From NCBI GenBank assembly GCA_037043015.1, contig CM073322.1:10675601-10739600 (forward strand): DNA of 64,000 bases, written 5' to 3'. This stretch comes from Bryum argenteum. Its lineage: Eukaryota > Streptophyta > Bryopsida > Bryales > Bryaceae. This document shows, in pieces, positions 11,712 through 63,952 of the stretch. Within the stretch, counting starts at the first letter, position 1, and each line of letters starts with the position of its first letter. A model generated the notes under the pieces. The model did not search any database. It had not been told where the DNA came from and saw only the letters and a program-made list of their open reading frames with translations. A program made the position numbers and the translations under genes.

Positions 11712-11974
11712 TTAACCCCTAACTTTCCTTGAAACCCGAAATGGGTTTTGGAGGTTCCATCATGAGAAAAACTTAGCCAACTTTGTCCATTATATTCTCA
11801 CAAATGAGGAAGAATGAACGGTTCAAAGTTGGTGTGTAAGAAGAATGTCAAAGTGAAATTTGAGATCTTAAATCTTTTAAAAAATGCTCAGATGAAGATT
11901 TATTGAGCTTAATCTAAAGGAAGGTCAAATTTTGTGACTTAGACCATTTTGAAACATGGAAATTTAGGGGTTAA
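11712..11974. mobile_element. piggyBac-type MITE, about 260-bp family, copy 1
   Basis: The element is TTAA-CCCCTAACTTTCC...AATTTAGGGG-TTAA, with TTAA at both edges and CCC-starting inverted ends, which is the piggyBac pattern. It sits inside the duplicated block whose other copies (10120-10150 and, inverted, 17695-17725) read straight through with CTAA at the corresponding place, so it was inserted after that duplication. Its interior (AACTTTG, CTCACAAATGAGGAAGAATGA, TTAATCTAAAGGAAGGTCAAA) is shared with the copies at 23872, 27182, 39591 and 47809. It has no coding capacity. Confidence 0.8.
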
Positions 11975-13053
11975 AGGTCTCATGTGAAAAAATTGTGGTT
12001 GAATTTGAGCATGCATCAAAGCTAATGTGCTAAAGATTAGCCACTATTCTAAGGAACATTGTATTAGAATTGTTCACCATCCTAAAAAAATCAATCATCA
12101 AAAAAATATATGCAACTTCATAAAAATATTTTGAGAGCAAGATGTTACTTTGAATCCACAAGTGATAACAAAGTTTAGGAGTACACGTGCAAGATGTTGT
12201 CTTTGTATATTTTAGTGAAAATTAGTTCAATATATGATATAAACATTCTAAAAACTAGGTCGATTATGAAAGTGGTTGGTGTTACCAAAAATTGACATTT
12301 AAACTACTTTTTTCTAGTGCCTTTTTTACTTTCAATTAAGAAAGATGATTTAATAAGCATAAGAATCAATAAGGTCTAGTAATACTATAACATCACTTAT
12401 CAATATCGAGCATGTTGGCCAAATATATCAAGTGCGTATTATACCAAATCAATAAAAGTATCTAAATATGCCATTTGAACATTCTCTAATTTCTTGGTTT
12501 CGTACAATCTTCTCAGTATTGGAAATAACTTTGTAAAGTACATTGTTGGAATAAATTCTAGATCATTCAGAGTCTTGGTTATTACAATGTAATAGGTTGC
12601 CCTTTACAGAATTACAACCCCAAAAAAATTCACATCTTTGAAAAGTAGGTTCTTTCAAATGCCCATAAGTTTAGAATATTTTTATTTTTTGGCCATTGAG
12701 GTAAAGACATTACGAACAGACGCTGTATTCACGCCAATCTCTTATTGGAGATTGGAGTTCTTATCTATCTTTAGAACATTTGACCATTATGAATAACAAG
12801 GTTGAGGATACCCCAAGTAGCAATTCACACCCAAGCTTTTGCCACTTGGAATATACTCATACCACCTACGTACTAGTGTTTTCACCAAGTCAAATTCCAA
12901 ATATTAGTATATTACTGATGCTAAAAATTATATTCTACATTTTGCAATGTTGACCACCTTTGTACAATTTTTTAAACACAACATCTTTTGTTTTCAAGAA
13001 CTGCAAATCCAAAAGATGTACAACATGGTGTGTATTTTGACCAAAGAAACTAA

Positions 13054-13209
13054 GGGCGGATTTACACTACGATGGAGAAGGCTACCAATCTGTCAAGGAT
13101 CCCATTTTCAACCAACACATTTCAAGAGCTTCAATTTCAACCAATCACATTTGAGATTTTTCCTAAATTTCTTCACCAGTGGACTTCTTAACAGTAGAGT
13201 AAACCAACC
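13054..13209. mobile_element. Harbinger/Tourist-like MITE, left-arm copy
   Basis: This 156-bp element starts GGGCGGATTTACACTACGAT, ends in an imperfect inverted copy (CAGTAGAGTAAACCAACCC), and is flanked by TAA on both sides (13051-13053 and 13210-13212). A 3-bp TAA/TTA duplication and a GG-starting terminal repeat fit PIF/Harbinger. Homologous copies are 15648-15805 and 23808-24189. Confidence 0.7.
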
Positions 13210-13311
13210 CTAAAGTTTGTCTGTCTTAGAGCCAATTTCTATAAGACATGTGATTTTTATGAAAATGAGGACAATTTCTTGTTTACAAGATAAAAATTAT
13301 CTTAAATTAAA

Positions 13312-13316
<5 letters not shown>

Positions 13317-13348
<32 letters not shown>
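13317..13348 (+). repeat. Poly-A run of about 32 bases
   Basis: This is an uninterrupted A homopolymer next to the inner end of the left arm. No retroelement body is recognisable upstream, so a retroposed tail cannot be claimed. Confidence 0.9.
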
Positions 13349-13349
<1 letters not shown>

Positions 13350-13425
13350 GTGTGTATAGAGAAGATTTGAGAATTGTCATCGCTTCTCTAGAGAGGAATG
13401 ATGCTCTTTCACTAGGTAAGGAGAG

Positions 13426-13638: not shown

Positions 13639-13639
13639 A

Positions 13640-15644
13640 AGTGCTCTTGGTCCCATTTGGCTTTACACTACCTTGATAAAACTAGAATGACCACTAACTT
13701 TGAGGTCCGCACAGTATGCTAAATTTTTTCATAATGGATAATGCTTTCACAATCTCCTTGATTATAGTTGAGTTGAAGCTAATGCCTCGACTCAACTACA
13801 ATCAACGAGACCATGAGGCTCAAACATCATTGATTGGCTCAGGTTCAATTATTCAAATGAGAAATGAGGAAAAAGGGGAGGGTAAAAGTTGGGGATTTAT
13901 ACTAAAGAATTGAGCTTAAACTTGTCCCTGTCCAAATCCACTTTACACTACAAGAATGACCAAGCCACTCAAAAGTCCATTCTTGATTTATCATGGTCAA
14001 TACGCTTGACCAAAACCCATGACCATAAAAATGATATTAATTTTCTTGGTCATGGCTCTTGGTCCATAGTGTAAAAGTACCCCTATGATGATCTCATGCT
14101 CGCATATAAAAAGAGAGCCAGCTCCCACCCTCGAGAAACATGGTACGCAGAACCCTATTTTCCTTTTTTTTTTTTTAAACCTGCCAAAAACACATAACAG
14201 CATTTCAAAAAATTCTATTGTGAAATTTTTTTTTTTAAAAAAACCCCAATTTATTTGAATGTGATCAAGGTGTAGTACTATTATTCCATAGTACAACTTT
14301 TGGTGGCAAGATCACTCATGTAAACAAATAATGGAATAGTGGTTTCGTACGTGCCTTCGTCCTTACATGTGGTACCGGTGAGATTAGTACCAAACCCTTG
14401 GTGGTATATGACATACATATCATTAAGAATAGGTGAAACAAATAATTCATATGAGGTTCAAAACAAGGTCTTGAGAGTGTTTTTTTTTTTTTTTTTTTTT
14501 TTTTTGGGTGCATAAGGTTAATTGGATTTGGAGTTTTTTTTCAAACATGGTAACTTACACCTTTGTAAACATAGAGTGTGAAAATATTACTTCTTTGGAC
14601 ATAGAGTTTGAACTCGGGGGTTTGACTCCATATGAGGTTTGGTATATCACGTGGGACAGAGGGGTACTACAATAAGTGTGACAAACTGTAAGTGGTTCAT
14701 ATCGACGAACTTCAAATTGACATGTTTTGTAGTGCTCTATATGTTCAACCGTGTAACGTGTTAAGGGAGCCCTTAAGTGGTGGCTTTTAGCAAATGCCGG
14801 ACACTAAATGCAATCCGGGTTCTCCCCTAGAATTTTCAAATATGGAAGGGGGCTATATTTTTTTTTCGCATGTAAGCCCCTAAAATTCCATGGGGAGGTT
14901 CCTAGGGTTAAATGGGGGCGTGGACCCCAATTTCTCTTAAAAAAAAAAAAAAAACCCTTAAGGGGGTCAAAAATTTAAAAACAAAAAACTGGGGTCCCAC
15001 CCCTCCTAGAGGACCCAGATTGGAATTAGTGAGCGGCTTTGTGAACAAGGATGGGGTTTGAGGTGCGCGCAATAGCCAATGATGGGTACCCCATGGCCAC
15101 GCGCTCAGCTTCAATGAAAGTGCAGCTCTGACTCGGTCCTCGCACTACTCATGATGAGAGCATGTCTTTGACCACATGTTGCCCTAATTTATTCCAACAT
15201 GCATACATCGCATTTCTACGAGCATGCCCAGCCGCGGTGCTTTAGGCCGGGCTGCATGAAAATCTCGGAGGCTCTCCTCGGTCGGACGTAGGAATCCCAC
15301 CCGAGGGTGGAAGACACGGCAGAGGAAAAGGTCGCTCACCAATCACATTTTCTCACAAGTCGGTTATAGTAGAAACTATTATCTGCGAATAAAATCTCTC
15401 CCACGTGGCAATCTTTCATTGGTTAATGGGGACGCTAATATGTGATTGAAGGCACATGGTAACTTAAAGTTATGGTGTGCTAGAATGTAAGAGACTTCAA
15501 CCCTCTTGACCTCAAACCCGTGTTGAGTTTTTGGAAAATATAAAATTAATGATGACTCAGAGATCATCTTGTGAACATGGAAATGACTTAATTTCCATAA
15601 GAAACTACCTATCTCATAGAAATTGGCTCTAAGACATAGAAACT
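13640..15644. other. Spacer of the inverted duplication, no recognisable gene
   Basis: This holds AT-rich DNA with a 26-base T-run (about 14480-14505) and A-runs near 14940. A small inverted pair, TTTACACTA near 13945 and TAGTGTAAA near 14069, may mark another decayed MITE. The stretch 15000-15350 is richer in G+C (CCGAGGGTGGAAGACACGGC and similar) and could be a gene or transposon relic, but no family is recognisable. Confidence 0.4.
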
Positions 15645-15647
15645 TTA

Positions 15648-15805
15648 GGGCTGGTTTACACTACGGTGGAGAAGTCTTCGGGTGTAGAAATTTATGAAAA
15701 ATCTCAAATGTGATTGGTTGAAATTGAAGCTCTTGAAATGTGGTTGGTTGAGAATGAGATCCTTGACCGACTCCTAGCCTTTTCCACTGAAGTGTCAATT
15801 GGCCC
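15648..15805. mobile_element. Harbinger/Tourist-like MITE, right-arm copy
   Basis: This is a 158-bp copy of the element at 13054 in the opposite orientation. It starts GGGCTGGTTTACACTACGGT and is flanked by TTA at 15645-15647 and 15806-15808. It was probably copied with the arm and did not insert here independently. Confidence 0.7.
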
Positions 15806-16312
15806 TTAGCATGTACCTTTGGATTTGTAGTTCTTGTAAACAAAAGACGTTGTGTTTCAAATGATTATACAAAGGTGATCTACAGTGAAAAATGTAGAAT
15901 ATTTGGAATTTGACTTGGTGAAAATACTGGTACAAAGGTGGTGTGAGTATATACCAAGTGCAAAGTCGTACTTGGTATGAGTATATCCCAAGTGGCAAAA
16001 GCTTGGGGTAAACTCAACCCTATAATTCATAATGGTCAAGTATTCTAAACTTTTGAGCATTTGTAAGAAGCTACAAAGATGTGAATATTTTTTGGGTTGT
16101 AATCTTGAAAAGGGCAACATATTATGTAACTTTTTGGATGATCTAGAATTCATTCTAATTATGTAATTATGAAGTTATTTCCAATACGGAGAAGATTGTA
16201 CGAAACCAGGAAATTAGAGAGTGTTCAAATGACATATTTAGATACTTTTGTTGATTTGGTATACTACACACTTGATATATTTGGGCAACATAACATCTCA
16301 TGCCCAATAATA

Positions 16313-17291
16313 TTAACCCCTAAACGTCCCTAGTGTCGAAAAACGACATTTTGGATGAAGGGCATAAACTTTAAAGAGCCATAACTTCTTCATGCAAACT
16401 CCGTTTTTGACGAAATCACTTGGGTTAGGTCACAAATCAAGTTTAGTTTATGTGGTAAAACTTGCAGACTCATAAAGTAAAGTATGAATAAATGACATGG
16501 ATTTTAGTGAAGGCAGCTTTTGTTTTTGGGTTTTCAAACATTTGGCATGTTTTACCATTGCAAGCCAATTATGTGAAATCTAAAATAGTTTTTCATGAAT
16601 TTTTTTCATAGGTTTGATATTTAGATGCATCCCAACAACTTTGTAGTTGGAAGTTTTTTGATCTAGATAACTTTGGTATTGACTTTGCAATGATGTTTCT
16701 ACGATGAAAAAAGTGAAAAAATGGGTGATTTTTGAATTGCTAGATCTCCTACATCCACCGTTAGATTTTGACTTTATTGTTTGGGATGGATTCTAATTAT
16801 AGTCTATTTTTAGTGGTAGAAACCTTGACCCAATCAAGGATATATTGAAGTAAAGGCATGGATTTGAGTGCGAGGGGTCTAGTTTTGGACTATTTTTCCT
16901 TTGTAAAATTTTTGGCAGTTTTCAAGACTACAAGGCTACTATTTGAGCCAAGATTTTTTTTTGATGAATTTTTTTGGTACAAGAGTGTTTTTGAGATGAA
17001 GATGAACAACTTTCTAGTTGCTGATTTTCTGATTGCAAATTTCATGTTGGTAGTATTTTCACTTCAAAGTGGAAATGATGGTATTTTGTAGCTTGTTTTG
17101 CGCACTAATATGTTATGATCTCGCAATCTATGAGGACCCATGAGTCAAGTTTTGGTCCACATGACCTACTACAAGTCTATTAGAAGTTTGTACGGTTGAG
17201 ATCTGAATAGCTTATCTTTATTTTCATCTATATCACTTTTTTTGAAAATGAGTTTTTGGCTAAAAATACCCCAAGGACGTTTAGGGGTTAA
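16313..17291. mobile_element. piggyBac-type MITE, long (about 950-bp) family, copy 1
   Basis: The ends are TTAA-CCCCTAAACGTCC and GGACGTTTAGGGG-TTAA, a 13-bp perfect inverted repeat bounded by TTAA. The left subterminal region has a small hairpin (TGTCG-AAAAA-CGACA). The matching place in the left arm (about 12395-12405, opposite strand) reads TTGATAAGTGATG without the element, a near-empty site. A 234-bp open frame inside (16858-17091) resembles no transposase and I treat it as chance. The sister copy is 63010-63952, and partial copies are at 41690-42234 and about 61310-61520. Confidence 0.8.
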
Positions 17292-17879
17292 TAAGTGATG
17301 TTATAGTATTATCAGTCCTTATAGATTCCTATGCTCATCAAATCATTATTTTTCTAAATTGAAACTAAAAAAAGGCACTAGGAGAAAGTATTTTAGATGT
17401 CAATTTCGCTAACACCAACCACTTTCATTATTGACATAGCTTTTAGAATATATATGGCACATGTTCACTAAAATATACAAAGGGTACATCTTGAACACTC
17501 AAAAAAATTTGTTATCACTTGTAGATTCAAAGTAACATCTTGCTCTCAAACTATTTTTATGAAGTTGCATTTGTTTTTTTAAAGATTGATTTTTGGGATG
17601 GTGAACAATTCTAATACAATGTCTCTTACAATTATAGTGGCTACAGTAATCTTTGGCACATCAACTTTAATGCATGCTCATATTCAACCACAAATTTTTC
17701 ACATCAAACCCTTAGAGGCATCACTATTAGTGCATGGTAGTTGAATATGTTATAAGCTTTAGCCCATAAATTGTTGTGGTATCCACTACTCTAGGAGTTG
17801 GTTCACACCTGGTGTAAATCGTGAATGATATTCGACAGTGAGCATTCTTATAAAATATGAGAGTTGTATTTGTTAACTA

Positions 17880-18640
17880 ATAGTAGTGCATAAGATAAGG
17901 TTCTGTTTTGGTTTTAGGCTTGACGTATAGAGTTTCAACATATATGGAGTTTGTGTGTAGTACGTAAAATAAGGTTTGATTTAGAATATGGCATTTAATA
18001 GTATGTAAGAGACAAGAGAAGGTTTAGTTTATGTTATAGAATATTACCTTTGTGGTATGCATGATAAGATTCTACATGGAATATGACATTGGCACTATGC
18101 AAGGTAAGGTTCAATTTTGCAAATTACATACACCTTCTAAACATTAGATGTTTGGGCAACACAAGATATCTTCATAATTTGACAATTTGACTTGCCATAA
18201 TGAAAACACACAAGATAAGGATCTATATTGCAATCTAGATTTTGCGACTATGTACACTTCAAATTGACATAGTAACAATTGTTTTGCAATCTGGAATTTG
18301 CATTAATGTACAATTCAAATTGACATGGTAAGCGCAGACAAGATAAAGATTGTTTTGCAATGTGACTTTTGCATCAATATACACTTCAATCTGCCATGAC
18401 TTTTGCATCAATGTACACTTGAATCTGCCAGAGTGACAACACACAAAAAGGATTTGTTTTACAATCCTCATTTTGCATCAATGTACAATTCAAATTGACA
18501 TAGTAACAATAAACAAGATAAAGATTGTCTTGCAATGTGACTTTTGCATCAATGTACACTTCAATCTGTCGTGACTTTTGCATCAATGTACAATTCAATC
18601 TAGGACAGTGACAACACACAAAAAAGGATAAATATAAATG
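17880..18640 (-). repeat. 72-bp satellite, opposite orientation
   Basis: Satellite units in reverse complement (ATAGTAACAA, TTTGCATCAATGTACA) close the outer end of the right arm. The first part (17880-18170) matches the degenerate border seen at 9700-9970. Confidence 0.85.
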
Positions 18641-20481: not shown

Positions 20482-20519
<38 letters not shown>

Positions 20520-20810: not shown

Positions 20811-21558
20811 TTAACCCTAGAACGTCGGAGCCCATAACCGTGGCCTGAACTTTGATGTGTCTTACTCTGAATCCTCCATTTCGCCACTTTACCTGAAAGT
20901 AAAATATTTTATTTTATTTTTCGTAGATGTGATCACATGCTTTTCATATGCTGTAAAAATTTCAGATTTTTTTGGGAAGATTTGAAATTCAAGTGAATTT
21001 TCAAAGAAAAACCAAAAATAATTCATATCAAATACAAATCACTTTCAAAAAATCTGAAATTTTTAGAATAAGGGGACATTGTAGTGAAGAATAGCATGGT
21101 GTAATCCATGGTCTCGTGTCATGCTATATTTGAAAATTGAGAAAGAGACCCTATAGGCATGTAAACTTAAGGTGTCAGTAAATCACTAGATATTAGGAAT
21201 TTCTTGAAATTCTAACTTGGAGTAGAAACAAGACTTGGTAAGATTCATTTTATGAATTGAGCTTGAACTCAAAAGAGATCATTTAGTTGCCTAAATTTGA
21301 GACTTAATAAAAGTAGGAAAAAGTTGCAGAAATGCACTGTGTGGTGATTTGTTTTTAACCATTCTTTCAACTTTCATACCACATGTGATCTTAGGAAATA
21401 CCTTAAATGACCTCAAATGAATTCCATGATATGCTATTATCATTCATAAATCCAATTACAAAAATCATGAATGAAATTCATCCCGCAATAATATAGGTTA
21501 CAATGAAAATGTTCTGTTCATCGGACATAAAATGGCCGCTCCGACGTTCCAGGGTTAA
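20811..21558. mobile_element. piggyBac-type MITE, 748 bp, separate family
   Basis: The ends are TTAA-CCCTAGAACGTCGGAG and CTCCGACGTTCCAGGG-TTAA, an inverted repeat of 16 bp with one mismatch bounded by TTAA. The interior is AT-rich and non-coding, with an inverted pair TCAGATTTTTT/AAAAAATCTGA near 20965 and 21045. Its first ten element bases (CCCTAGAACG) closely resemble the ends of classical piggyBac elements. Confidence 0.75.
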
Positions 21559-23807: not shown

Positions 23808-24189
23808 GGGTCGGTTTATACTACTATGGAAAAGGCCACTGAGTAGTCAAGAATTTCACTCTTAACCCCTAAAGGTCCTTGATACAAAATTGTTTAAATT
23901 ATCAAAAAGAACCTTCTTCTACTTCAGGTGCAAAGAAATTCAATCTAAGCATTGATTAGAAGATCCAACCGTAGGGTCTTGAAGTTAACTTGACCCTTTT
24001 CTCGAATGTCAAATTTGAACCGTTAATTATTCTCCAATTTTGAGATTATAATGGTCAAAGTTTGCTGAATTTTCTCCCTGCGGAAATTCCAAAAAGCGAT
24101 TTCCGCTTTCTTGGACCTTTAGGGGTTAAACAATCACATTTGCCAACTTTCTTGACTAGTGGACATCTCCACCATTGTGTAAACGGGCC
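23808..24189. mobile_element. Harbinger/Tourist-like MITE interrupted by a piggyBac-type MITE
   Basis: The outer element starts GGGTCGGTTTATACTACTAT and ends CCATTGTGTAAACGGGCC, flanked by TTA (23805-23807 and 24190-24192). It is a homologue of the elements at 13054 and 15648. The TTAA-bounded element at 23872-24129 sits inside it, so the Harbinger-like insertion is the older event. Confidence 0.7.
23872..24129. mobile_element. piggyBac-type MITE, 260-bp family, nested copy
   Basis: This is TTAA-CCCCTAAAGGTCC...GGACCTTTAGGGG-TTAA, 258 bp, with a perfect 13-bp inverted repeat. It is in the opposite orientation to the copy at 11712 and the same orientation as that at 39591. Confidence 0.8.
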
Positions 24190-25744
24190 TTATACCTACG
24201 TTGTCGTCACTTTTCAAAGTTAGAATTGGAGTTTACCTCTAGTACGGTTCATGTTAAGAATAGGATGTTGGACCTTGTATTTGTACATGCAATACTTACG
24301 TTTATAATTTCCTTATACTTTCAAAGTTCTAAGAGTCAAAATAGGGCATGCTCAAAGTTGTCCAACATCGCACAAGGTTCCTGTATAATGTCATAATCTT
24401 TCCAAAACAATTAGCTCCGAGAGACTTTTATAATTCATCAAAGTTTGAAATTTTACTTGTTTTTGTCAAGCTTCGTTTTTCTATACATGTAATTTAAGGG
24501 ATATTGAGGCATGTTTCTAAATCTATGTGATGTTTAGTTTATCATGGTGTCATTTGTAAGTTTATAGTGTTATTCTCCATAAAAGACAAAAGTCTCAAAC
24601 CCTCGTAGGTGACGTTGTATAGTTTTTCTTGATATCATTTGTAAAATCAATAAAAGAAAAGACGTCAAATCTTGGTAGCTCATGTCGTTTCTTTGTGTGT
24701 TGTAAGTTGTTTAGTTATTTCATAGTGTCGTTTGTAAGTTCAATAAAAAGAAGGGTGTCAAACCTTGGTAAGTAAAGTTTTATTGTGTATGTTTTTTAGT
24801 TTCTTTCTTAGTGTCACTTGTAAATTTAATAAAAGAAGAGGTCTCAAACCTTGTTTTTAATGCTTTTCAACCGCAACATTTGCATGAAAATGCCACGGTG
24901 TGAACTTGCTTACCACTTTAGGGCAATGAATAGAATTGGAGTTTTTATTGACTTTAGTATTAGAATCTTTTAAAATTCATGTTGTTCCATTCAATTTTTG
25001 AGTATGAAGTTGTTTTATAGATCGTTGCTTGGAAAGGTCTAAATTTCTTGTTAAAATGATTATTAAAATCTTACTCGATCAAATCTGTGAATAATTTCTA
25101 AATAACTTGTAGGCAAAAAGGCATGGCGAAAACTTCATGCGTAGCTCTCTCACGGATTTTTATCTTTGCAATTTGTGAATAAGGGGGTTTGCAAACATTT
25201 TCTTACAACGTATTCTTATAGTGATGCAACGTTTACAACCTTAAATTTAGGAAAGTATATATAATGTTGTTTATTATATTAACATCGTTAAAACAAGTAC
25301 TAGGACGTTGCTTCACTTCAACAATGTTTAGAAGGAACGTTGCATAAATCCCACCTTCTAATCATATGGCCGCACGTTTGTCTTGCAATTTTATGGGTTT
25401 TCATTTAATCCGTGTGTATGTTTTCATTTGATCTGTGTGTATGTTTTCATTTGATCCGTGTGTATGTTTTCATTTCACTACTTTTGTCACGAAGGAGTAA
25501 ACACATTTTAAGTAATTAGGGGTACTCATAGGAGAAAATGAATTTTCTTGCTTACACAATATTTAAAAATTATGTAGCTTTTTGTTTCCTCTTTTTTTGA
25601 AATGCAATGTATTGCTCAATTTTCATTTAAAAGTTTTGGTATCGTATATATTCATATAGATTTGTTAGGGTTTCATATTTGTTGAGAAATTGTTTTCATA
25701 AAAGGGACGTGTGTCTTTTATTGCATGATGTAGAAGGACTTGCA
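24190..25744. repeat. AT-rich DNA with two minor tandem repeats
   Basis: At about 24535-24860 a degenerate unit of about 100 bp (AGTGTCATTTGTAAGTTTA, then AAAAGA and GTCAAACCTTG) occurs four times. At about 25390-25475 a 23-bp unit (TTTCATTTGATCTGTGTGTA with its continuation) occurs roughly four times. No gene is recognised. Confidence 0.5.
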
Positions 25745-26250: not shown

Positions 26251-26339
26251 GCAAAGAAGATATTGCTACCATTAAATCCTCATGCTTTCACTTTATCATG
26301 GTCATATTTTGTAAGTATGTTTCTTTTATTTTTTATTTT

Positions 26340-28046
26340 TTTATTTTACAACTTGTTAGGGTCTGAAGCATATTTTTTGGCCAATGATTTGTAAAAGTGC
26401 ATGCAACACGTACTTTCTTGACAAGATTTCAATGGTTTTTGCAATGTGTTTCCATAAATTAAAACAAGTGGGGATATTGTGCCAAAAACGGTGGACACGC
26501 CATGTTTCCACGTAAATGTACGAGACTGAGGCACTCACTAACATGCAATATCACAATGTGCCATTAAATTTCGTGAAATGAATTTTGACTTCTTGAACCT
26601 CTATGCACGTGAACATTTTTTTAGACAAACGTGCAAATATGACGTGCATTTCGTGCATTTTTTGTTAGACAATCTCGATCAAATGACCAATTGTGTAGTT
26701 GGTTCGCACAATGATTCCATCCTCTTAAACATGTGCTACTCATATGGCGCACATTTGAACGTTATGTTCGCAACTTCTATCTCTCGCACGCCCTTGTCGT
26801 AGAATTCGCCCCTTCTCCTAGCCTATTGCAATTCGTGTATCCCTTCAAACTCATATATGTCTTCCACATGCACATGAAAGAAGTCCAACTCCTTCATGTG
26901 CAAAACAATCGGCGATCCAAGTGTTCTCAATCGACACAAGAGTACTAGGGTAGATTTAAGCATCTTTCATGTCTGTCTGAAGTACCAGTCAAGTGAATAG
27001 TACTTGAAAGGATAAGGGTGTGAGTGTATGAGAAATAGAGTGGCGTTAACCGTGAGCAATTGCGAAACTCTTAAACATTCCAAGACGAGAACGTTTCACC
27101 TGACTACGAGAAGCGAAAAACCTCAATCATTCACGTAGACACAATCCACTTGCCTACAAGAAAGCAAAAAACCTCGCCCTATTAACCCCTAACTCTCCTT
27201 AAAATCCGAAACGGGTTTTGGAGGTTCCCGCAGGAGAAAAACTCAGCTAACTTTGATCATTATAATCTCACAAACGAGGAAGAATGAACGGTTCAAATTT
27301 GGTATGTGGGAAGAATGTCAAGTGAACTTTGAGATCTTACGGTTGAATCTTTTAAATAATTCTTGGATTGAGATTTTTTGAGCTTAATCTAAAGGAAGGT
27401 CAAATATTGTGACTTAGACCGTTTTGCAACAAGGAGATTTAGGGGTTAAGAAAATACGTTACACGTTGATCCAAGCAACGTTCTCAACGAACAAACTTTC
27501 TTTCAATTGTACAAGTACACAACCAATGTCATAAAATAGATTTAAAACACAAATTTTAAAAGTTATAAAAGGACATTAAATATCATAATTATGAAACAAA
27601 GAACATACTGGAAATGGAGGGTGGAATATGATAAAAATGATAGGGTGACCGTATAAACGTATGAATATATAGAACGTAGTCTTTTCAAGAAGATATGTTA
27701 CACGTTGGTTTAAGCAACGTTCTCAACAAACAAACGTTCTTTCTTTTGTACAAGTACACAACCAATATCATAAAAATAAATCTAAAACACAACTTAAAAT
27801 CTTCATACAAGGACATCAAATATTTCAAAACAACAAACATAGTAAAAATGGAGAGTTGAATACGATAAAACCGATAGGATAAACGTAAAAATAAAACGTT
27901 AGAATGTGATCATAGAACATGATGGAATTTTCGTTCAAAAAGGGGTAACTTAAAGTGACATGGAAGCAACCCATAGACACATAAGACCAAACTTTTAAAA
28001 AATATATATATACAATGGCCATCACCCCCATAGAAATTGGCAACAT
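26340..28046 (-). pseudogene. Decayed TMEM131-like gene fragment, copy 1
   Basis: Read on the minus strand, this stretch follows part of the gene at 54849-59297 from late exon 2, through intron 2, into exon 3 (roughly parent positions 56200-57550). The clearest block is 26660-26930 against 57000-57260: TTGCGAACATAACGTTCAAA against TTGCTAACATAACGTTTAAA, and TGTGCGAACCAAC against AGTGCGAACCAAC. Intron sequence is retained: GGATCGCCGATTGTTTTGC (minus strand, 26901-26919) against GGATCGCCGATTGTTTGC at 57005-57022. The peptide VSYIYVETWRVHRFWHNIPT at the left end echoes the parent transmembrane segment VSLLVYFQVVVAEPDLPT. The frame is broken in many places and the intron acceptor AG is lost. A MITE splits it at 27182-27449, and 27450-27660 is repeated at 27670-27900. 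Weaker similarity towards 28046 is judged by eye. Confidence 0.75.
27182..27449. mobile_element. piggyBac-type MITE, 260-bp family, copy inside the pseudogene
   Basis: This is TTAA-CCCCTAACTCTCC...AGATTTAGGGG-TTAA, 268 bp. The second pseudogene copy lacks it: CTCGCCCTTTCATGAAG near 29921-29937 is uninterrupted, whereas this copy reads CTCGCCCTA-element-GAAAATACG. The insertion is therefore younger than the segmental duplication. Confidence 0.8.
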
Positions 28047-28980: not shown

Positions 28981-29029
28981 ATGTATTTTTATTTTATTTT
29001 TAATTATTATTAATTTACAAGTGTTATGG

Positions 29030-38790: not shown

Positions 38791-39590
38791 ATCTAAAATC
38801 CAAGTTTTGTTTCTTTCCCCTTTTTTCGCAATTTTGGGAAATCCAACTCTAGGATCTTTGTTAAAGCTCTCTAATTAGTCTACCCACCAGATTTTACCAA
38901 ATTCTGCAGAAATAATCTATTTAGTCAAAAGTTTCCATATTTGCAAAAATAGCTAATCTACCACAATATGGTCAGTTCCGACTTCACGGGTTAAGGAGCT
39001 AAAATTGGAGCAATATTTGAAACCCTTAGCATGATACTTGTCATACATGTACTTCTTACCAGACAAACTGACACTCTATTCGCGCCGCTTTGAAGGAGGA
39101 ATGGAGTTCATATCTATTTACTTCTTACCTTAGAAAATATTCCACGGAATGCAAAGACAAAAAAATACCTTGAATGTGGCAATGCTTCCAAAGCAGTTCC
39201 AACAAATACGGTGGGAATACATGAATACAAAAGAGGGTTCAAGTTCCGAATCTTCTCTATACAGTGAAAGCCCATATCAGGGTATTGAATAAAAGAGTAT
39301 ACAATTGCCGATTCTCTTTGTACAAGTACAGTATCATAATACATTTGATATATACTGCATACAGATTCAAAGGGTCACCCAATGATGGAACACCATTGTA
39401 AGGGTATCTATGAAACTTTCTAAAAAGCAACATTAGATCCCTTCTTCTAAAGATTTTCTACAGTAAAGTTCTGAATTTAGGTTTGACCAGGTAAGGTAGC
39501 ACCAGGTCTTTTACTGGAAGCACCCATGTGAATAACAACACCAAAATAAGTGAAAATAAGATTGGTTGAAATATCAGATTTTAACCCCTA
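38791..39590. other. Intergenic DNA, nothing recognised
   Basis: This is mixed AT-rich DNA without family-bearing open frames or clear repeats. A 76-codon minus-strand frame at 39114-39344 has no recognisable features. Confidence 0.35.
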
Positions 39591-39848
39591 AAGTTCCTTG
39601 TTGCAAAATTGTCTAAGTCACAGAATTTGACCTTCCTTTAGATTAAGCTCAAAAAATCTCAATCTAAGAATTATTTAGAAGATTTAACCGTAAGATCTCA
39701 AAGTGAACTTGACATTCTTCTCACATACCAAATTTGAACCGTTGATTCTTCCTCGTTTGTGAGATTATAATGATCAAAGTTGGTTGAGTTTTTCTCGTGC
39801 GGGAACCTCCAAAACCCACTTTGGGTTTTAAGGAAAGTTAGGGGTTAA
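39591..39848. mobile_element. piggyBac-type MITE, 260-bp family
   Basis: This is TTAA-CCCCTAAAGTTCC...GGAAAGTTAGGGG-TTAA, 258 bp. Its interior matches the nested copy at 23872 in the same orientation and the copies at 11712 and 27182 in reverse. Confidence 0.8.
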
Positions 39849-41689: not shown

Positions 41690-42234
41690 CCACTACATGG
41701 CTAAAAATCTTTGCACTCTAACCGCGGCTTTATTTTTTGGGATGGATTTCAATCATAGTCTCGTTTTATTGGTAGAAAAACTTAACCTCATAAAAACAGT
41801 GTTGAAGATAAGCGATGGATATGATTGCAAAGGGTGTTGTTTTGGATTATTTTTCCTTTGTATCTTTTGGGTATGTTTTCACCTTTGGATGGCTATTGTT
41901 TGAGCCAAGATATTTTTTGATGATTTTTTTGGTACAAGATTAAGATGAACAAACTTCGTGGTTTGAATTTTTTTTTATTACGGTGGTAATATTTCCACCT
42001 TATAAGTGAAAATAATGAGTTCTTTAGTGTGTGTTGTGTACGAATACGTAATGATTTTGTAATCTATGAGGCATCATGGTTCAATTTTTGGTACACCTGA
42101 CCCACAACAAGTTTACTACAAGTTTGTATGGTTGAGATATAAATTTCTTGCTTTTATTTTCATCTATGACACATTTTTGAAAATAAATCTTTGGCTTAAA
42201 TACTCGAAGGACATATAGGGGTTGAGATTTCTAA
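41690..42234 (+). mobile_element. Truncated copy of the long piggyBac-type MITE
   Basis: From about 41735 to 42234 the sequence follows 16780-17291 (GGGATGGATT, TTGGATTATTTTTCCTTTGTA against TTGGACTATTTTTCCTTTGTA, AAGGACATATAGGGG against AAGGACGTTTAGGGG). The right end reads GGGG-TTGA, a one-base change from TTAA, and the left end is missing or unrecognisable. Confidence 0.65.

Positions 42235-46365: not shown

Positions 46366-46446
<81 letters not shown>
46366..46446. repeat. TA microsatellite, about 40 repeats
   Basis: An uninterrupted alternating AT tract of about 80 bp is followed by an A-run. It is self-complementary and could extrude as a cruciform. Confidence 0.97.
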
Positions 46447-46451
<5 letters not shown>

Positions 46452-46814: not shown

Positions 46815-47247
46815 TTAACCCTTAAGCGCCCACAGTGTCGTTTTTCGACATTCTGGATGTGAGGCTCCATCTTTGGTGCACAACGCCGCTTTCATCCCAT
46901 CGATTTTCCATCCGCCATTTTTTTTGCTCAACTCCTCGGTGGGTTTACTCTACTCCCTCCTTGGATAAATAGTAAAAACCTTGATCCTCAATTTGTGAGA
47001 GTGGGCGAAAGAGATTTTTCATGAAAGTTTTGGTGGTGTGATTTCACCCCTTTTTTGCATGGATCTTGAAATCCATAGCTCCGAATGACATGCAACTTGG
47101 CAATCATTCTAATTGCCATGCTCCAAAGAAGATCCTACGGTTGGATTTTCCATTTTCATCTTTTATTTGTTTTTACGCAGTTTTGAAAAAATCAGCATTA
47201 TTATCAATTGTTAGGAGCTTTACCCCCCTTGGGCATTTAGGGGTTAA
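46815..47247. mobile_element. piggyBac-type MITE, 433 bp
   Basis: TTAA-CCCTTAAGCGCCC at the left and GGGCATTTAGGGG-TTAA at the right give imperfect inverted ends bounded by TTAA. Near the left end it has the hairpin TGTCG-TTTTT-CGACA, also present in the long family at 16313 and 63010. No coding capacity. Confidence 0.7.
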
Positions 47248-47808: not shown

Positions 47809-48076
47809 TAAACCCCTACATGTGCAAGAAAGCCAAAATGACTTATTGGGCCTCCAACACGAACAAAATTCAGCCAACTTTGACTACTAAAATCTCACAA
47901 ATGAGAAAGAATCAACAATTAGATTTGGTATGTAAGTCAAAGGCTGAGTCAACTTTAAGATCCTAGAATTCGAACCTCCCAAATAATGCTTAAATTGAGT
48001 TTTTTCAGACCTTAACTAGAGGAAGGTCTATTTTCATCATTCAAACAATTTCGCATCAAGAATCTTCACGGGTTAA
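47809..48076. mobile_element. piggyBac-type MITE, 260-bp family, degraded
   Basis: The interior (CAGCCAACTTTGACTACTAA, CTCACAAATGAGAAAGAATC) belongs to the 260-bp family. The left boundary reads TAAA-CCCCTA and the right CGGG-TTAA, so one TTAA is mutated and the ends have decayed. Confidence 0.65.
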
Positions 48077-48549: not shown

Positions 48550-48715
48550 CTTATAACTTTTCTTAAAACCCGAAATGGGTTGGGAAGGTTACCGGAGGAG
48601 AAGAATTTAACCAACTTTGACTACTATGATCATCACGAATGAAGAAGAATTAACGATTGAAATTTGATATGTGAGTAGGATGTCAAGATGATTTTCATAT
48701 CCTACGGTTTAAAAT
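48550..48715 (+). mobile_element. Truncated piggyBac-type MITE, 260-bp family
   Basis: AACTTTTCTTAAAACCCGAA and AACCAACTTTGACTACTATG match the left half of the family; the right half and its TTAA are missing. It runs directly into the purine-rich stretch that follows. Confidence 0.6.
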
Positions 48716-54848: not shown

Positions 54849-57800
54849 ATGCTCTTCCTCACGTGGGCGATTCTGTTCCTGGGCATGCTGTCCCTGCCGC
54901 CTATGCTTGGCGTGAACGCTGACAGCATCAACACTGAGCGTCTGAGCGTACCCCTCGGTGATGGACCAGATTCCTCTTCCTTCAGCGGAGCCATTCGCGA
55001 AGTTACTTCCAAAGGTTTGTATCTTCTTGCAATCAAAACTTGCGACAACAAAAATACAAACATTTCAAAGATTATTTTGTTATTCCAGAAACGTCGTTCA
55101 GGTCACTTCGAATTTTAATCAAACATTAGTAAAACAAACGAAATAGAATCAACAACGGTATAGAACTACATGCTAAGCTTTTCTCCCTTCTCTAACGTCG
55201 TTTTGGTTACCATCAATGAAATTGGTCATTCGTCATTTGCCCAAAAAAAAAGAAAAAACAAACTAAAACGTTATAATACTCTAAAATTCTTGTAACGTTT
55301 TCTTTGCCCTTTCATAAACGTCGATCATGTCACCATTAATGACATTAATGTAATCAGTTATTGTGATGGTTTCTACAGCCAGTCAAAACTTTTGTTGAGT
55401 AAGGTAGCTTATAGTGCTCCAGACACGAAGTTTTATCTTTTTCTTTTAAACGTTATTACAATCACATTACTTCCTGATGAAACGTTTTGAAGAAAATGAT
55501 TTTCAGTGGCTCCTATGCAATTTTGATGAGCAGTATGTTCGGTTCTACACGTTGCAGTCATGGTATGTAAACGACGAGCAGTAAGCCCAGTTGTAAACGT
55601 TTCAGTCATGTATTTAAATGCAGAAACGTTACAAGCAGAAACTTCATCTTTCGGTTCTATCGATACGTTCAGTATTAACAGGAAGTTATGATTGTGAATG
55701 CAGGGACGTATGAAGGAGAGACAGGTTCTGAGAGGAGGCAAGACGAAGTTATCAACAACGTTCCGATTCCAACGAGCGGTTTTGACTCCTCGGGCAGCAG
55801 CGCCGAAGTCCAGATTCCTGTTGAGCAAGAATCCTGTCGAGCTTTGGTACGAGCAGCAGGGACAAGGCAAGTAACGTGTGCGGGAGGGTCTTCGGCAGCT
55901 GAGGTGGGGGGTTCTTCATCATCCTCCTCCGAAGTCCGTGATTGTTCGAAAGACGAAACCATCATAGTGGACAAATTAAGTTCAGTGTCGGCGGCGGAGG
56001 CTTTATTTTCCCCTTCACAGCTCCAGTTTGGGATGCAGCCATTGTATCAACGGCAGGTGGCATTTCTGACCATCATGAACTCTTGCAATGGCTCGAGATT
56101 ATCACTCTTAGCTGCTAAAAGTGATAATGGGCAGTTTCTTGTCACTGGCTTCTCTGAAAATCTTGCGCCTGGCGGGACACTTACATTCCCTGTGTGTTAC
56201 TTACCTCAGTACATCGGAGCAGCTAAAGGAAGTATAACTATAGAAACCGGTAGAGACAAGCTTGTAGTGCAGTTACAAGGGGAAGGCGTGGAATCGCTCT
56301 TCAAGATAAACGTTCGTGTGCAACCTGGGAAGTCGCACCATTACGTCCTTTCCCTTTTCAACCCTTATAACGAAACCATGTTCGTGGAGCAGGTTGTTAT
56401 CTTGCCCGAAAACAACAACAACGTTGGGATAAAAACAAAAGTTAGTAATGATTTAGATGGTATTGTTATTGAAGCTGGAGAAAGTACTAGTACTTTTAAA
56501 GAGCGTGGGCTGCATATGCGTGCCGGGAAGACCTGGGACCTCCCCGCTCAAACCATGACGGATATAGTAGATTTTAATATTTTGCTCGGCACCGAGGAAA
56601 CGTTACAAGGAGCCTTCCAGATTCGTGTTGCTAGGCCAGCTCCTGAGGAGAGAGGCGTCACTCTTGTGTACCCTTTTAGCTCTCGAGTCTCGCGCCCCTC
56701 TCCTGTCATGTCCATTCCTGATACGTTGGACTTTGGAAGGGTGGTTGGTGATCAGGCTAGCTCGCAGCCTTTAATTCTGCAAAACTCCGGCCAGCAGTCA
56801 CTCAAGGTTAATTCTCACAGCCTTATCCCTTCTACTACTGTTCACTTGATTGGAACTTCAGACAGACAGACAGGAGAGATGCTTTAATCCATTTGGGCTG
56901 CATTGTCGGGACTTAAGCTTTAAAATTTCCGCACGGGTTGGGTCTACCATGACGTGACACTGATCTTTTGCTTGTTTTAAGCAACCCAGTATGTTGCTCA
57001 ATTGGATCGCCGATTGTTTGCTGATGGAGGTGTTGTTGCTTATTGCGCAGGTAGAGGACATTTATGAGGTGCAGGGGGATCCAAGGATCGCTATAGACTA
57101 CGAGAAGGGCCGGATTCTGCGACCAGGGCTGGAGACAGAAGTTGCTAACATAACGTTTAAAGGCGAGTACCAGCCGCACGAGTCGAGTGCGGGTAGGAGG
57201 GTGCAGAGAATCGTAGTGCGAACCAACAGCACAATTGGACACCTGATCGAGATTGCCTACCGTGCAATGGTGCTCCAATGTTCACCCTCTCCTGCGATAG
57301 CGTTCGTGACAGGTAGCACGGGAGGATCAGTGAGGGAGTTGGGAGGTCAGGACATCACTGACCTCCTGATGGACTATAAATTGCTCATGGTTTTGATGTT
57401 TTGTGGAGTCGTAGTGAGCCTGCTAGTGTATTTCCAAGTAGTGGTCGCAGAACCCGATTTGCCGACTATCTCTGGCGACCTGGGCAAGGGCCGGAGTACC
57501 TGTGTAACTCCCTTCATCAAGCGGAGGGACCGAATTATCAAGATGTGGGGTTGGGGCGCGTTGGCGACGGTAGTCGATGGCATTTGGGCGGCGGCCGGCT
57601 CCGCTTTGTGGCGGAAAGACTGCAGCACGTCGAGCAATCTTGACTTCGATCTGCCGCGTTCGTTGGCACCTGCTGATGCTGCGCCGCCTGCACAGACAGA
57701 AGCGCAGACACCGCCGCCGAAGCCTGCGACGACTCCGCAGGTGGGGAAGGGGAGGTCAGAGAAGAAGGGCAGTGGTGCTGCAAAGGCAGACCACAAGCTG

Positions 57801-59297
57801 CCTGTGACCACGCGAGACTCGACTCACCACCCAACATCCGTGAAGCAACCCAAAGCTTCGAAGTTTCTGAGGCCAGACCACTCGAAGCATTCTACTTCCA
57901 TCGAAACGAGCTCTGTTGATGCAGTTGACGCTCCTGTTGTGAAACAAGCACCAGTCGTAGCAGAACCCGCACCAGAGATCGAAGCGCCGGCAGTGGCAGT
58001 TCCGCCACCGAAAGAGTCGTCGTCCCCGGCGAAGGACACCACGATTTCGAGTGTAGCTGCGCCTCAGAAGACGCAGCAGCAGCAGCCGGCGGCACCACCT
58101 CCAGTGGTGGAACGTGAGCGGCGGAGGAGGAAGAAGAAAAGCTCCCACGTTGCGACCACGACTTCCCCAGCGTCACCTGCCTCTCCTGTCACCCCTTCTG
58201 CTGCTGTCGCTTGGCCCACTAGTCCGAAGAAGTCCGACCCTTCGTTGAGTCCCCGAAGCTCGGGATCTGTGGACCTTGTGGATGTCCCTGCTCCGCTCCC
58301 GAAGCTGAAGTTTTGTGTGAAAGTTCTGAACGCGCCGAGGGCACCGATTGTTGCTCCTGCCTCGTCCACGCCAGTGCAGCAGCAGCAGCAGCGAGGTAAG
58401 GCTGTACCAGACAATCGCAAGCAGCAGCCATTGGGTGTGAACAAACGGAGCAACTTCAACGAGTGGCCGGCCGTAGCGCGCAAGAAGGCACCGGATGGAA
58501 GCCAGTCGTATCGACGATCTCGTGAAGCTCACGTTGCAGCTGAAGATGTCGGAGCTTGTTTCACAACGTCTGCGTCTTTTCCACGCTTGAATGCTCGCCA
58601 GGGTTGGGTTAACCCTGTGCATGACTCGTCTGTGGTTCCGCCGCCTGCCATCGCACCAGCGCTGCGAGCCCCGGGGGCCAAGATCACCAAGGCGGCGAGT
58701 GAGACAGGGTGGACAAGTTTGGGGTTTACGTCGAACCCAGAGTTTCAAGCTGCTCCATGGCATGCAAGCTCCTCGCTTTCTGGGCAGAGCTCTGGGGAGC
58801 AAGTTTATGATATTTGGGGCAATCATTTCGGGAACTTCGGGAGCCAGTGCAGTGAGGAGAGCAAGGAGGTGGCCGGGCTTCACAAGCTGCTGGTGCCAGA
58901 GCACGTGACACACCATGAATCTGATCAGGGTATGAGTCCGCACGGTACCGAGATTTACAGGGCGCCATTCTCAGGGTTTTTCAGCGAGGGTGTTGATAGT
59001 CGGCCTGGTTCTCCAGCTCTGCCGGATCAGCTGTATCCCGTTTTTGGCACGGCGCAGGTGCCAGTGCGGCCCCGGGTTAGGGTGCCTTACTCCCCTCCCA
59101 TGCCATACTCCCCCCCGATGGGCTCATGCGTTGCAACCACGGTTTTTTCGACCTCGGCCTTCAACAGCCCCTTGTCAACTCCGACTCCAACGAACTCCAC
59201 CTCCAGCAGCAGCAACTGCTCCTCATTGTGGGCGCACGACAACAACAGCAAGAACTTTCCGGAGCGAGTGGTTTCTCCCACTCTGTCTTTGACTTGA
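54849..59297 (+). CDS. TMEM131-like membrane protein
   Basis: Three coding exons (54849-55014, 55704-56806, 57051-59297), joined at GTTTGT and GTTAAT donors with CAG acceptors, give 1,171 residues. The start MLFLTWAILFLGMLSLPPML is a signal peptide ending near GVNA (residue 24). Residues about 158-251 form a PapD-like immunoglobulin-fold domain typical of TMEM131 (SPSQLQFGMQPLYQRQVAFL, then NLAPGGTLTFPVCY), and a second similar segment starts near SIPDTLDFGRVVG (about 390). One transmembrane helix follows at about 534-556 (LLMVLMFCGVVVSLLVYFQV). The remaining 615 residues would be cytosolic: Pro/Ser/Ala-rich with QQQQ runs and basic patches. Animal TMEM131 acts in ER-to-Golgi export of secreted cargo such as collagen; a similar trafficking or wall-related role in plants is inference. 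Pieces of exons 2-3 are duplicated as pseudogenes at 26.3-30.4 kb. Confidence 0.85.
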
Positions 59298-60451: not shown

Positions 60452-60836
60452 GAACTGAGGGGACAAGTCATAGATCCTCTTGGCTACCGGTCAGTCCGTA
60501 GCTTCAACTTTTGAGAAACTGAGGTGACAGGTGATAGATCCTCTTGGCCGTCGGCGAGTCGGTAGCTTCAACTTTTGAGAAACTGAGGTGATTGGTGATA
60601 GATCCTCTTGGCCGTTGGCGAGTCGGTAGCTTCAACTTTTGAGAAACTGAGGTGATTGGTGATAGATCCTCTTGGCCGTTGGCGAGTCGGTAGCTTCAAC
60701 TTTTGAGAAACTGAGGTGACAGGTGATAGATCCTCTTGATCTTCGGCGAGTCCGTAGCTTTAACTTTTGAGAAATTGAGGTGACAGGTGATAAATCCTCT
60801 TGGGTGTCGAACAGTTGCTAGCTTCAACTTTTGAGT
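60452..60836 (+). repeat. 64-bp tandem repeat, six units
   Basis: The GAGG of successive units falls at 60457, 60521, 60585, 60649, 60713 and 60777, exactly 64 bp apart. Units share ATAGATCCTCTTGG, GAGTCGGTAGCTTCAACTTT and TGAGAAACTGAGGTGA. The third and fourth are almost identical, which suggests recent expansion. Confidence 0.95.
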
Positions 60837-62029
60837 AGGTATACACTGAGGATTAGAATGTGAGACCGCACCGCATGCTTGAAACTCCTTGAGTTGACAT
60901 TTGGCCAAAGGTCATGCCACTAGTATATATAAAGTCAACGCTTTCAATCTCGTACAAGATCATGTGTCGGTATTGCCATTAGGTAATTAATCCACAACAA
61001 TTCAGAAAAGGTGAATTAGCTTTTAAGGATTCTTGTTATGCTTAGACAAGAAATAAGAAAAATCCAGGGTTGATTTTTACTTTATTTATTTATTTACTTA
61101 ATTTTTTTTTGTCGTTAATGTCGAGGTTGAGAACCTTATGATCTACATGTAGAAAAAATTGCAAGGCTAGATTCCCTTTTTTGATTTGTGTAGAGCATTT
61201 TCTTCTCTTGACGCGGAAGTGGAGCAAATTGGGATGCCTTCTAAGCCAAAGAGATTTGTCGGCAAATACAAGGCGGTTTTGGGGGTTAGCAAAGAAAGTT
61301 AGCATGGGGCACGGGGTTTAAAGAAGGTTTACTACTAACTCATGTTTAAAAACCGAGAAACAAGAGTTGCCTTCATGAAAATGAATGCCATTAATTTAAA
61401 CTTTCTTAAATGGGTTAAAAAATTTTGCCAAGAAAAGTAGACTTGATTTGTGACCCCATTCAAGTGATTTTGTCTAAAAGAGACTGAGGATGAAGAATTT
61501 ATGGTTCTTCAAAGTTTAAGCTTGTCATCTAAACTGTCGCTTCTCTCCATTCAGCACGTTCAGGGATTACTTGGGCAAAAAACTTCTAAGTTGCAAAACT
61601 TTTCTGAGTTCTTTCTTCAATCAAAATTCCTAGTCAAATCTCTTGGTGATTCAAAGTTAAAATTTATAATGAATTGCAAAGGGAAGGCTTCAGATTGAAA
61701 TTGAAGAAATTTCATTAGGCCAACCTCAGAGCTTTCTGATTCTAACAAATATAATGTTGCAACAATCAAGTTCAACATTTAATAATTTTTACTTTCAAGT
61801 AGAGAAGTTAGAATTATTCCAATCGATCTTAAGATTTCTTAATTCTAGCTTCAAGAATTTTTTTTCCTTAATGAACTTATTATCTATGGTGATTACGGAT
61901 AGTACAAGCCATATGATGACTAGTGTAACTCAAGGCTTTTTTGTGACTATGATAATTTCGGGGCATGTTATATGGAGACTATCATAATTTGAGGTCATCT
62001 ATCAAAAGACTGTCTAGTAATCATTTCGA
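60837..62029. other. Intergenic DNA with a MITE remnant
   Basis: About 61310-61520 resembles one end region of the long TTAA-bounded MITE (AAAGTAGACTTGATTTGTGACC here, AAGTAGACTCGATTTGTGACC near 63818), without ends. Small open frames (61501-61698, 61754-61987) show no family features. Confidence 0.45.
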
Positions 62030-62990
62030 CAAGAATATTGATAACCAAAAACCAATTATTTTATTGAAGGGTGGCCATCTATCTCAAGACTAATTGGTCA
62101 TTTAAGGCTATTGACTGAAGATCAACCATTTAATTTATTGAGCCAACATTTGATTGATTGTAGCCTCAACTTGTTATTAAAAAAAAGGCCATTATGATTG
62201 ACTCCAGTGCAAGTGGTGACATAATTCAGTGTCTTAACGCCAACTAATTGGTGACTCAAAGCACTTACTAAAGGTCAACCAATCAAGGCCTCAAGGACAA
62301 TCAAGTCGTGCCTGAAGGCAATTACGTAGGGCCAACTCATTGATGACTGAAGGTCAACCAACTGGTTCTGAAGATAATGACTCAAGGTCTATCAACTTGT
62401 GCTGGTTCTCAAGATAGTGACTCAAGGTCTATCAACTTGTGCATGTAGGGAGTGACTTAGGGCCAGCCGGTCGGTCACTTATGGTAGTGACTCACGGCCA
62501 ATCAACTCGACCTTAAAGGCATGATTCAAGGCCAACCAACTGGTGACTTGAATTAGTGACTGAAGGGCAACAAACTAGAGCATGAAGGTAATAGCCCTGG
62601 GCCAACCAACTCAAGGCCAACTAAGTGCTGCATGAAGGTAATAATTTACAATCAACCAACTCGTGCATTAAGGTACTGACGCAAGGCCAACCAACTGGTG
62701 CATTAGGGTAATAATTCACGGTCAACGAATTAGTAGGTTAAGGTAGTGAGGCAAAGCCAATCAGTTGGTGCGTTGGTGCGTTAAGGTGGTGATGCAAGAC
62801 CAAATGGCTAGTGTTTCAAAGTAGTGACTCAAGGCCAACCATTTGATGTCTCAAGGCCAATCATATAATTTCATGGCCAACTTGTGATATGCTTAAGGTT
62901 GAACTTGTGATGGACTCAAGGCTAACTTGTTATTGGTCAACTAGTGATTGGGTACTTACCATTAAACTCAAGAGCCAACTTGTGATTAAC
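62030..62990 (+). repeat. Degenerate minisatellite, about 35-40 bp
   Basis: The motif CAAGGCCAACCAACTGGTGC, followed by a variable ATTAAGGTAGTGACT-like part, recurs some 20 times with strong divergence. It is clearest between 62460 and 62850. Confidence 0.75.
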
Positions 62991-63009
62991 TCAAAAGAAA
63001 TCATGTGAT

Positions 63010-63952
63010 TTAACCCCTACACGTCTTTTAGCCAAAAATTCACTTTTGAGAAAATTGACATAAATGAAAATAAAAATAAGCTATTCAAATCTCAAACGTA
63101 CGATTTTTTAAAAAAAAACTTGTTTTTTGAATTGGGACCAAAACTGACTCATGAGACCTCATATATATCATCAAATATTAGTGCGCAAAACATGCTACAA
63201 AATTCTATTATTTTCACTTTGAAGTGAAAATACTACCAACAAGAAATTTGCAATCAAAAACCACCAACGAGAATGTTGTTCATCTTCATCTCAAAGACTC
63301 TATCGTACTGAAAAAATTCATCAAAAATAAAATAAAATCTTGGCTCAAATAGTAGCCTTGCAATGGTGAAAAGTAGTCCAAAACTAGACTCCTTGCACTC
63401 AAATGCATGAATTATCTTCAATACATCTTTAACTAGGGTAGTAATTTTTTCACTAAAACTAGACTATAATTTGAATCCATCCCAAAAAATAGAGTCAAAT
63501 CTATTGGTGGATGAAGGAGATCTGGCTTTCCAAAAATCATCCGTTTTTCACTTTTTTCATTGTAGAAACATCATTGCAAATCCAATACCAAAGTTATCCG
63601 GATCAAAAACCCTCCAACTACAAAGCATTTGGAATGCATCTAAAGATCATATTTGTGTAAGAAAATTCATGAACAACTATCATTGATCTCACATAATTGG
63701 CTTGCAATGGTAAAACATGCCAAATGTTTGAAAACCCGAAAACAAAAGCTGCCTTTACTAAAATGCATGTCAATTGCTCATACTTTATAGTATGGGTCTG
63801 AAACTTTTACCTAAAAAAGTAGACTCGATTTGTGACCCAACCAGAGTGACATCGTTCAAAACCGAGTCCGGATAAAGAAGTTATGGCTCTCCAAAGTTTC
63901 TGCCCTTGATCCAAAATGTCGTTTTTCGACACCAGGGACATCTAGGGGTTTA
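63010..63952. mobile_element. piggyBac-type MITE, long family, copy 2
   Basis: This is about 943 bp, in the opposite orientation to the copy at 16313. The left end is TTAA-CCCCTACACGTC and the right end GGGACATCTAGGGG-TTTA, so one TTAA has a substitution. The subterminal hairpin TGTCG-TTTTT-CGACA lies near the right end (about 63918-63932). The 71-codon frame at 63471-63686 is not a transposase. Confidence 0.75.

Follow-up and report, generated by a model that had tools for sequence, protein, structure and literature searches.

The 64,000-nucleotide stretch of contig CM073322.1 analysed here (the window; positions are counted from its first letter) holds eight complete miniature inverted-repeat transposable elements (MITEs), E1, E2, E3, E4, E5, E7, E8 and E9, together with one degraded copy (E10) and three fragments. 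Their form is that of an inverted pair which starts TTAACCC and finishes GGGTTAA. With very little doubt these MITEs belong to the piggyBac superfamily and would be moved by piggyBac transposases with genes elsewhere in the genome of the host, a land plant and most likely a moss. A preliminary description, made from the letters of the window, had predicted piggyBac from the TTAA targets and CCC ends, and the prediction is supported by transposase loci with like ends in the same genome.

Within the window TTAACCCCTA occurs eight times and TAGGGGTTAA seven times, against 0.05 and 0.06 expected under a dinucleotide model. A blind rule, by which TTAA-anchored inverted pairs 100-3000 base pairs (bp) apart were compared over their first 16 end bases, with 20 Markov-1 random sequences as control, gave 10 pairs with at least 12 of 16 matches, and seven of these have CCC at both ends whereas no such pair occurs across the 20 random sequences. 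At 13 or more matches there are seven pairs, one of them poly-A, against a random mean of 0.05. The rule recovers E1, E2, E3, E4, E5 and E7, and also a further CCC pair, E6. Matches number 11-15 in E1-E5 and E7-E9; E8 and E9 (11 each) and E10 (8) are under the threshold of 12 and were accepted via homology to other copies.

E6 (30968-31451) had been counted among nine near-complete elements, of which the other eight are real MITEs, as the separately described degraded copy is real. On the right it ends within a longer tandem repeat that recurs at 28351-28616 and 31708-31893, and none of its 42 other genome matches (40 of 191 candidates scored) spans its bases 1-145. Because the right end runs into the tandem repeat and no other listed match covers bases 1-145, unlike the situation in the four real families, where most listed matches span the element end to end, E6 was rejected as a MITE. 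The starts first given for E4 (23872) and E7 (39591) were wrong, the real ones (23862 and 39581) being 10 bases earlier, with TTAACCCCTA. The ends are of the CCC(C/T) type, and seven of the nine window elements are bounded on both sides by TTAA, but E9 has TTTA and E10 TAAA at one side. The proposed size families of about 260 and 950 bp stand, but the supposed group of 430-750 bp is two families with different ends, one of 433 bp (E8) and one of 748 bp (E3).

By self-comparison, then, the window has four MITE families: the 260-bp family (E1, E4, E5, E7, degraded E10 and one fragment), the 950-bp family (E2, E9 and two fragments), and the E3 and E8 families. The first 45 bases of E8 are 76% like E2. 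The genome (258.8 Mb in 25 contigs) was searched for copies with 40 candidates scored per query; candidates are not confirmed copies, and the match counts are lower bounds. For the 260-bp family (E7 as query) there are at least 41 matches including the query (40 of 3030 candidates scored), for the 950-bp family (E2 as query) at least 49 including the query, some of them partial (40 of 7297), for E3 at least 40 full-length matches including the query at 99-100% identity (40 of 266), and for E8 at least 41 including the query at 95-100% (40 of 499). The 268-, 979-, 748- and 433-bp families thus have the properties of MITEs, each with about 40 full-length matches among those listed and non-coding as judged from the open reading frame (ORF) lists of the window. 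Against Pfam, six window ORFs yielded a TMEM131-like gene and a single weak match, with no transposase among them, and Rfam and tRNA scans of the window gave no matches.

Among the E3 matches 23 have one identical score and 16 have another, which suggests, but does not prove, that the copies are nearly identical; one further copy, compared over its whole length, differs from that of the window in seven of 748 aligned columns. One E2 copy is 100% identical to the window element while its flanks are unrelated. Such close likeness between copies at unrelated sites suggests that movement was recent. Among E2-family copies on G000:C2 there is one (L061/L062) whose right TTAA doubles as the TTAA of an E8-like end, and the left TTAA of another, in the L057 region, is preceded by ...TTTAGGGG, as though each later element had taken the TTAA end of an earlier one for its target.

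A piggyBac transposase gene with the same ends, which the preliminary description had proposed to look for, is present in the genome, with its catalytic residues in place. The piggyBac transposase domain, PF13843, has at least 116 scored matches (116 of 775 candidates scored; best E value 7.4e-82), while 14 control genomes have none; none of the 116 lies in the window, and by manual count 93 are free of stops within the matched stretch and 23 are not. Around 18 of 23 transposase loci examined (L009-L028, of which all 20 are best-scoring, and L054-L056), there are CCC-type ends with TTAA on both sides, end pairs being picked by eye; L013, L023 and L026 have one such end, and L015 and L054 have none. 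L054 (G000:C8:13519200-13529100), one of six equal-score PF13843 matches, has a piggyBac frame of 831 amino acids, with no TTAACC[CT] end and no good TTAA pair in the 9.9 kb examined. When seven pairs of related loci were compared, collinear homology ended at, or within two bases of, TTAA at both ends in five (L014/L022, L009/L010, L019/L020, L055/L056 and L017/L021). The L014 and L022 elements are about 95-99% identical per segment and are at different places in the genome. Some locus pairs also have separate, non-collinear repeats in common outside the elements.

PF13843 is the sole Pfam match in each of eight transposase frames scanned, which from stop to stop are 831-1226 amino acids long and are not gene models. 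The frame of L025 matches piggyBat (9c0f; E 2.6e-25) and piggyBac (6x67; E 2.3e-24), and piggyBac D268, D346 and D447, named as catalytic residues in a passage of PMC7351741, align with its D531, D627 and D745, which are kept in all 16 frames compared. D450 aligns with D748, kept in 15 of the 16. The C-terminal cysteine pattern was seen by eye in 12 of the 16 frame tails; it is unclear in L011 and was not seen in L025, L054 or L022.

Several of the window MITEs resemble the ends of particular transposase elements. E3 agrees with the ends of the 8.4-kb transposase element in L011, without a difference over its last 42 bases and at 91% over its first 34. E4 bases 1-212 match the last 221 bases of the L028 element at 65%, while E1 matches both ends of the L019 element (bases 56-263, 61% over 232 columns; bases 1-45, 80% over 45), so that the 260-bp family resembles an element reduced to about 220 bases from one end and 45 from the other. 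The first 38 bases of E5 are 89% like one end of the L025 element, and E8 matches the left end of that in L056 at 74% over bases 1-111. The left end of E2 is nearest to L055 and L056 (35 of 50 bases, the next best being 29).

End types were assigned by eye on a tree of 23 transposase domains; 21 domains have a label, which for three comes from a single end, and 'none' served as a further label. End type changes seven times on it, where the minimum is six and shuffled labels give a mean of 13.0, none of 200 shuffles being as low; near-copies in the tree add to this clustering. The CCCTTAAACG, CCCCTCAAGG, CCCCAAAG and CCCTTAAGCG end groups are each set apart by a branch supported at 100/100, that of CCCCTAAA is interrupted by L054 alone, which has no known ends, and the CCCTAGAACG type is L011 alone, on a long branch. 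End type tracks the transposase tree, and ends and transposases have therefore descended together to a large extent. Three or more transposase lineages of a single superfamily are indicated by the MITE families of the window. A single transposase common to all of them, as the preliminary description had imagined when it had several non-autonomous lineages use one enzyme, is rejected in view of the end types, the tree and the end comparisons.

The target was examined in 37 further copies, taken from the best-scoring matches of queries that include TTAA; being so drawn, the sample favours intact ends. Duplications other than TTAA across many copies, which had been named beforehand as what would speak against piggyBac, are not what is seen: 35 of the 37 are flanked by TTAA at either end, one by CTAA at either end and one by TTAA and TTTA. 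The two departures are among the 20 copies of the 260-bp family, the other 18 having TTAA at both ends, as do all 10 E2 copies and all seven E3 copies. Because CTAA is not palindromic, the CTAA copy (L040) points to a duplication of four bases rather than two, and it is the one clear copy on which the length of 4 bp rests. Repeats within the window also supply paralogous empty sites for E1, E2 and E5, each without the element and without one copy of the four bases. E1 and E2 themselves are on different arms of an inverted duplication (9452-13291 and 15566-18629, about 72-93% identical in pieces), the arms carrying different MITEs.

The host is a land plant and most likely a moss, in view of its LEAFY match and its chlorophyll a/b-binding genes, and the earlier reading of the window as plant DNA was right. 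There are LEAFY-domain matches in the genome, and a LEAFY exon scores 242.9 bits against PDB 4bhk (LEAFY homolog 1), the next best being 172.3; we take 4bhk to be LEAFY of the moss Physcomitrella, and the aspartate in KPKMRDYVHCYALH is presumably typical of moss LEAFY. The chlorophyll a/b-binding domain has 90 genome matches; one control genome, that of a cyanobacterium, also has the domain. Large clusters of weak matches to it lie at G000:C5:8161886-8412977, C5:14730833-14760859 and C2:25064562-25094660, and resemble early light-induced proteins, a group linked to desiccation tolerance.

By analogy with piggyBac, whose transposase, in a passage of PMC7351741, cuts at the element ends, makes TTAA hairpins and inserts at TTAA with 4-bp duplications, the MITE ends would be recognised by transposases whose genes lie elsewhere in the genome, the MITE would be cut out, and its insertion at TTAA would give the 4-bp TTAA duplication. 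The anatomy found here fits the piggyBac features of end, target and catalytic residues that were examined. From the sequences compared, the transposases may be presumed to act on these MITEs in trans, and the MITEs to have begun as internal-deletion derivatives, an origin that is well supported in the 260-bp family and likely in E3 and E8, with a weaker case in the 950-bp family; movement would be recent or ongoing.

Several observations weigh against parts of this interpretation. At the three empty sites TTAA is no longer read: they have CTAA, next to a gap of one base, TTGA, near a gap of 13 bases, and TCAT. The repeat pieces aligned around them are about 78-93% identical, so changed bases are not unlikely, but there is still no clean confirmation, and the sites are too diverged to separate never-occupied from repaired. 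The homology of L016 and L023 stops within the element and that of L010 and L013 reaches one end only, while L011, the partner of E3, has alanine where the others have D748. For the 950-bp family the match to its proposed lineage extends over no more than about 46-48 bases of the left end (73-74%, E 0.005-0.017), and the right ends of E2 and E8 are nearest to L025 (30 of 50 bases) and L016 (33 of 50), respectively; because those right ends are nearest other lineages, only the left end connects the 950-bp and E8 families with the L055/L056 lineage. E9 and E10 have no terminal match among 18 elements under the filter used. Most MITE ends, moreover, are CCCC (at both ends of E1, E2, E4, E5, E7 and E9) and not the CCYT with which, in a passage of PMC10175614, the terminal inverted repeats of the superfamily, about 12-19 bp long, are said to start; CCCT is found at both ends of E3 and of the L011 element, and at the left end of E8.

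Other superfamilies might be thought of. Kolobok MITEs likewise duplicate TTAA, but in the same passage of PMC9587614 that gives this common feature their termini are 5′-RR...YY-3′, where the elements here start 5′-CCC beside TTAA, and the transposase found in longer elements that share these ends is of piggyBac type, which leaves Kolobok a very small probability. It is also very improbable that these are mariner (TA) or Harbinger (TWA) MITEs with targets that happen to fall in TTAA. TA and TAA do lie within TTAA, and a palindromic target alone cannot separate a 2-bp from a 4-bp duplication, but CTAA on both sides of L040 would need two matching mutations if the duplication were of 2 bp, TTA...TAA is no direct repeat, and the transposases found with these ends are piggyBac.

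More serious, though we consider it doubtful, is the possibility that the MITEs are derived from piggyBac but extinct, their movement long over and the transposases relics. The best copies of the 260-bp family are about 6% apart (mean pairwise identity 0.943 among 20 copies, with none of 190 pairs identical), the L025 frame is without the cysteine pattern of its relatives, and there are the stops in 23 of the PF13843 matches. Set against extinction are the full-length E3 matches at 99-100%, the copy with only seven differing columns among them, the fully identical E2 copy at an unrelated site, and the closeness of L014 and L022 at different places. Whether there is, instead, a living piggyBac radiation in this land plant (most likely moss), with at least six transposase lineages that have their own end types, of which at least three founded, and now drive, MITE families of their own, and with E3 recently spread and probably still moving, we regard as an evenly balanced question.

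Mammalian piggyBac MITEs of the MER75 and MER85 type are short, non-coding, TTAA-flanked piggyBac derivatives and, likened by description alone, have their form in common with the elements here but a different host. Trichoplusia ni piggyBac and bat piggyBat have the TTAA target, the CCC ends and a DDD transposase with the same aspartates, and their C-terminal cysteine pattern is that matched in 12 of 16 frames here; the two solved chains have 594 and 578 residues, against the longer frames of the present genome, which as stop-to-stop frames are not gene models. Differences from the superfamily lie in the many CCCC ends and in the land plant host. The superfamily is described, in the portion of PMC10175614 consulted, as widely distributed in eukaryotes and especially in metazoans. 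PiggyBac is nevertheless one of seven MITE superfamilies in angiosperms, grouped by interior, end and target sequence, in a passage of PMC10004981, and in the present case transposase elements with like ends are also found in the same genome. It is named among plant superfamilies in an extract of PMC10794571, and part of a report on a fern assembly gives 1230 PiggyBac-labelled repeats that make up 0.00% of the assembly (PMC6890710). For mosses, piggyBac is mentioned in a section of PMC5505980 as an animal-derived tool that had been used in rice and, in 2017, was not yet tested in Physcomitrella; in the portion of PMC5253467 available it occurs in a reference title only. Of two moss genome papers in partial text, PMC10619864 has only 'piggybacking' and PMC9247546 lacks the name in its main text, as does the moss review PMC13120521 (supplements of both lie outside this scope). 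Among the titles and starts of abstracts listed from the open literature, a scope that leaves out most subscription journals, none describes a piggyBac native to moss.

Other features of the window include a 72-bp unit repeated in tandem about 56 times at 5619-9656, with related short arrays near 10965-11500, 18182-18629 and 25740-26270. The TMEM131-like gene, with high-GC frames, is at 55688-59297, and fragments that resemble it are on the other strand at 26666-27024 and 29406-29660. Open frames at 2980-3279 and 40830-41150 resemble an exon of a branched-chain aminotransferase and part of a protein kinase.

Table. MITEs, fragments and paralogous empty sites in the window
Feature	Position	Strand	Remarks
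E1, 260-bp family MITE, 263 bp including both TTAA	11712..11974	-	86% to E7 end to end; TTAA both sides
E2, 950-bp family MITE, 979 bp	16313..17291	+	Genome matches including one 100% identical copy
E3, 748-bp family MITE, ends CCCTAGAACGTCGGAG	20811..21558	+	Full-length genome matches at 99-100%; ends like L011 element
E4, divergent 260-bp family MITE	23862..24129	+	73% to E7; end match to L028 element
E5, 260-bp family MITE	27182..27449	-	92% to E7; end match to L025 element
E7, 260-bp family MITE	39581..39848	+	Genome matches (family query)
E8, 433-bp family MITE	46815..47247	+	Genome matches 95-100%; left end like L056 element
E9, 950-bp family MITE, older copy	63010..63952	-	80% to E2 bases 3-979; TTAA one side, TTTA other
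E10, degraded 260-bp family MITE	47809..48076	-	72% to E7 over 266/268 bases; TAAA one side
950-bp family fragment (E2 bases 460-977)	41728..42223	+	74%
260-bp family fragment (E7 bases 103-260)	48554..48712	-	79%
950-bp family fragment (E2 bases 2-229)	61342..61569	-	74%
E1 paralogous empty sites	9959-10461 and 17892-17288
E2 paralogous empty site	near 12399-12412
E5 paralogous empty site	inside 29223-30160

Because plant MITEs and repeats have already been filed under piggyBac, its presence in plants is not wholly new. The kind of element is known and the host poorly documented; what is added is a set of transposase partners, diverse among themselves, in a moss-like genome. A single plant genome here unites the transposase genes, the ends belonging to them and MITEs that have such ends, which offers a natural test of the joint change of transposase and end sequence and plant-native candidates for tools of the piggyBac type. 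If the radiation is indeed a living one, this would be a native, and possibly active, piggyBac system of a land plant.

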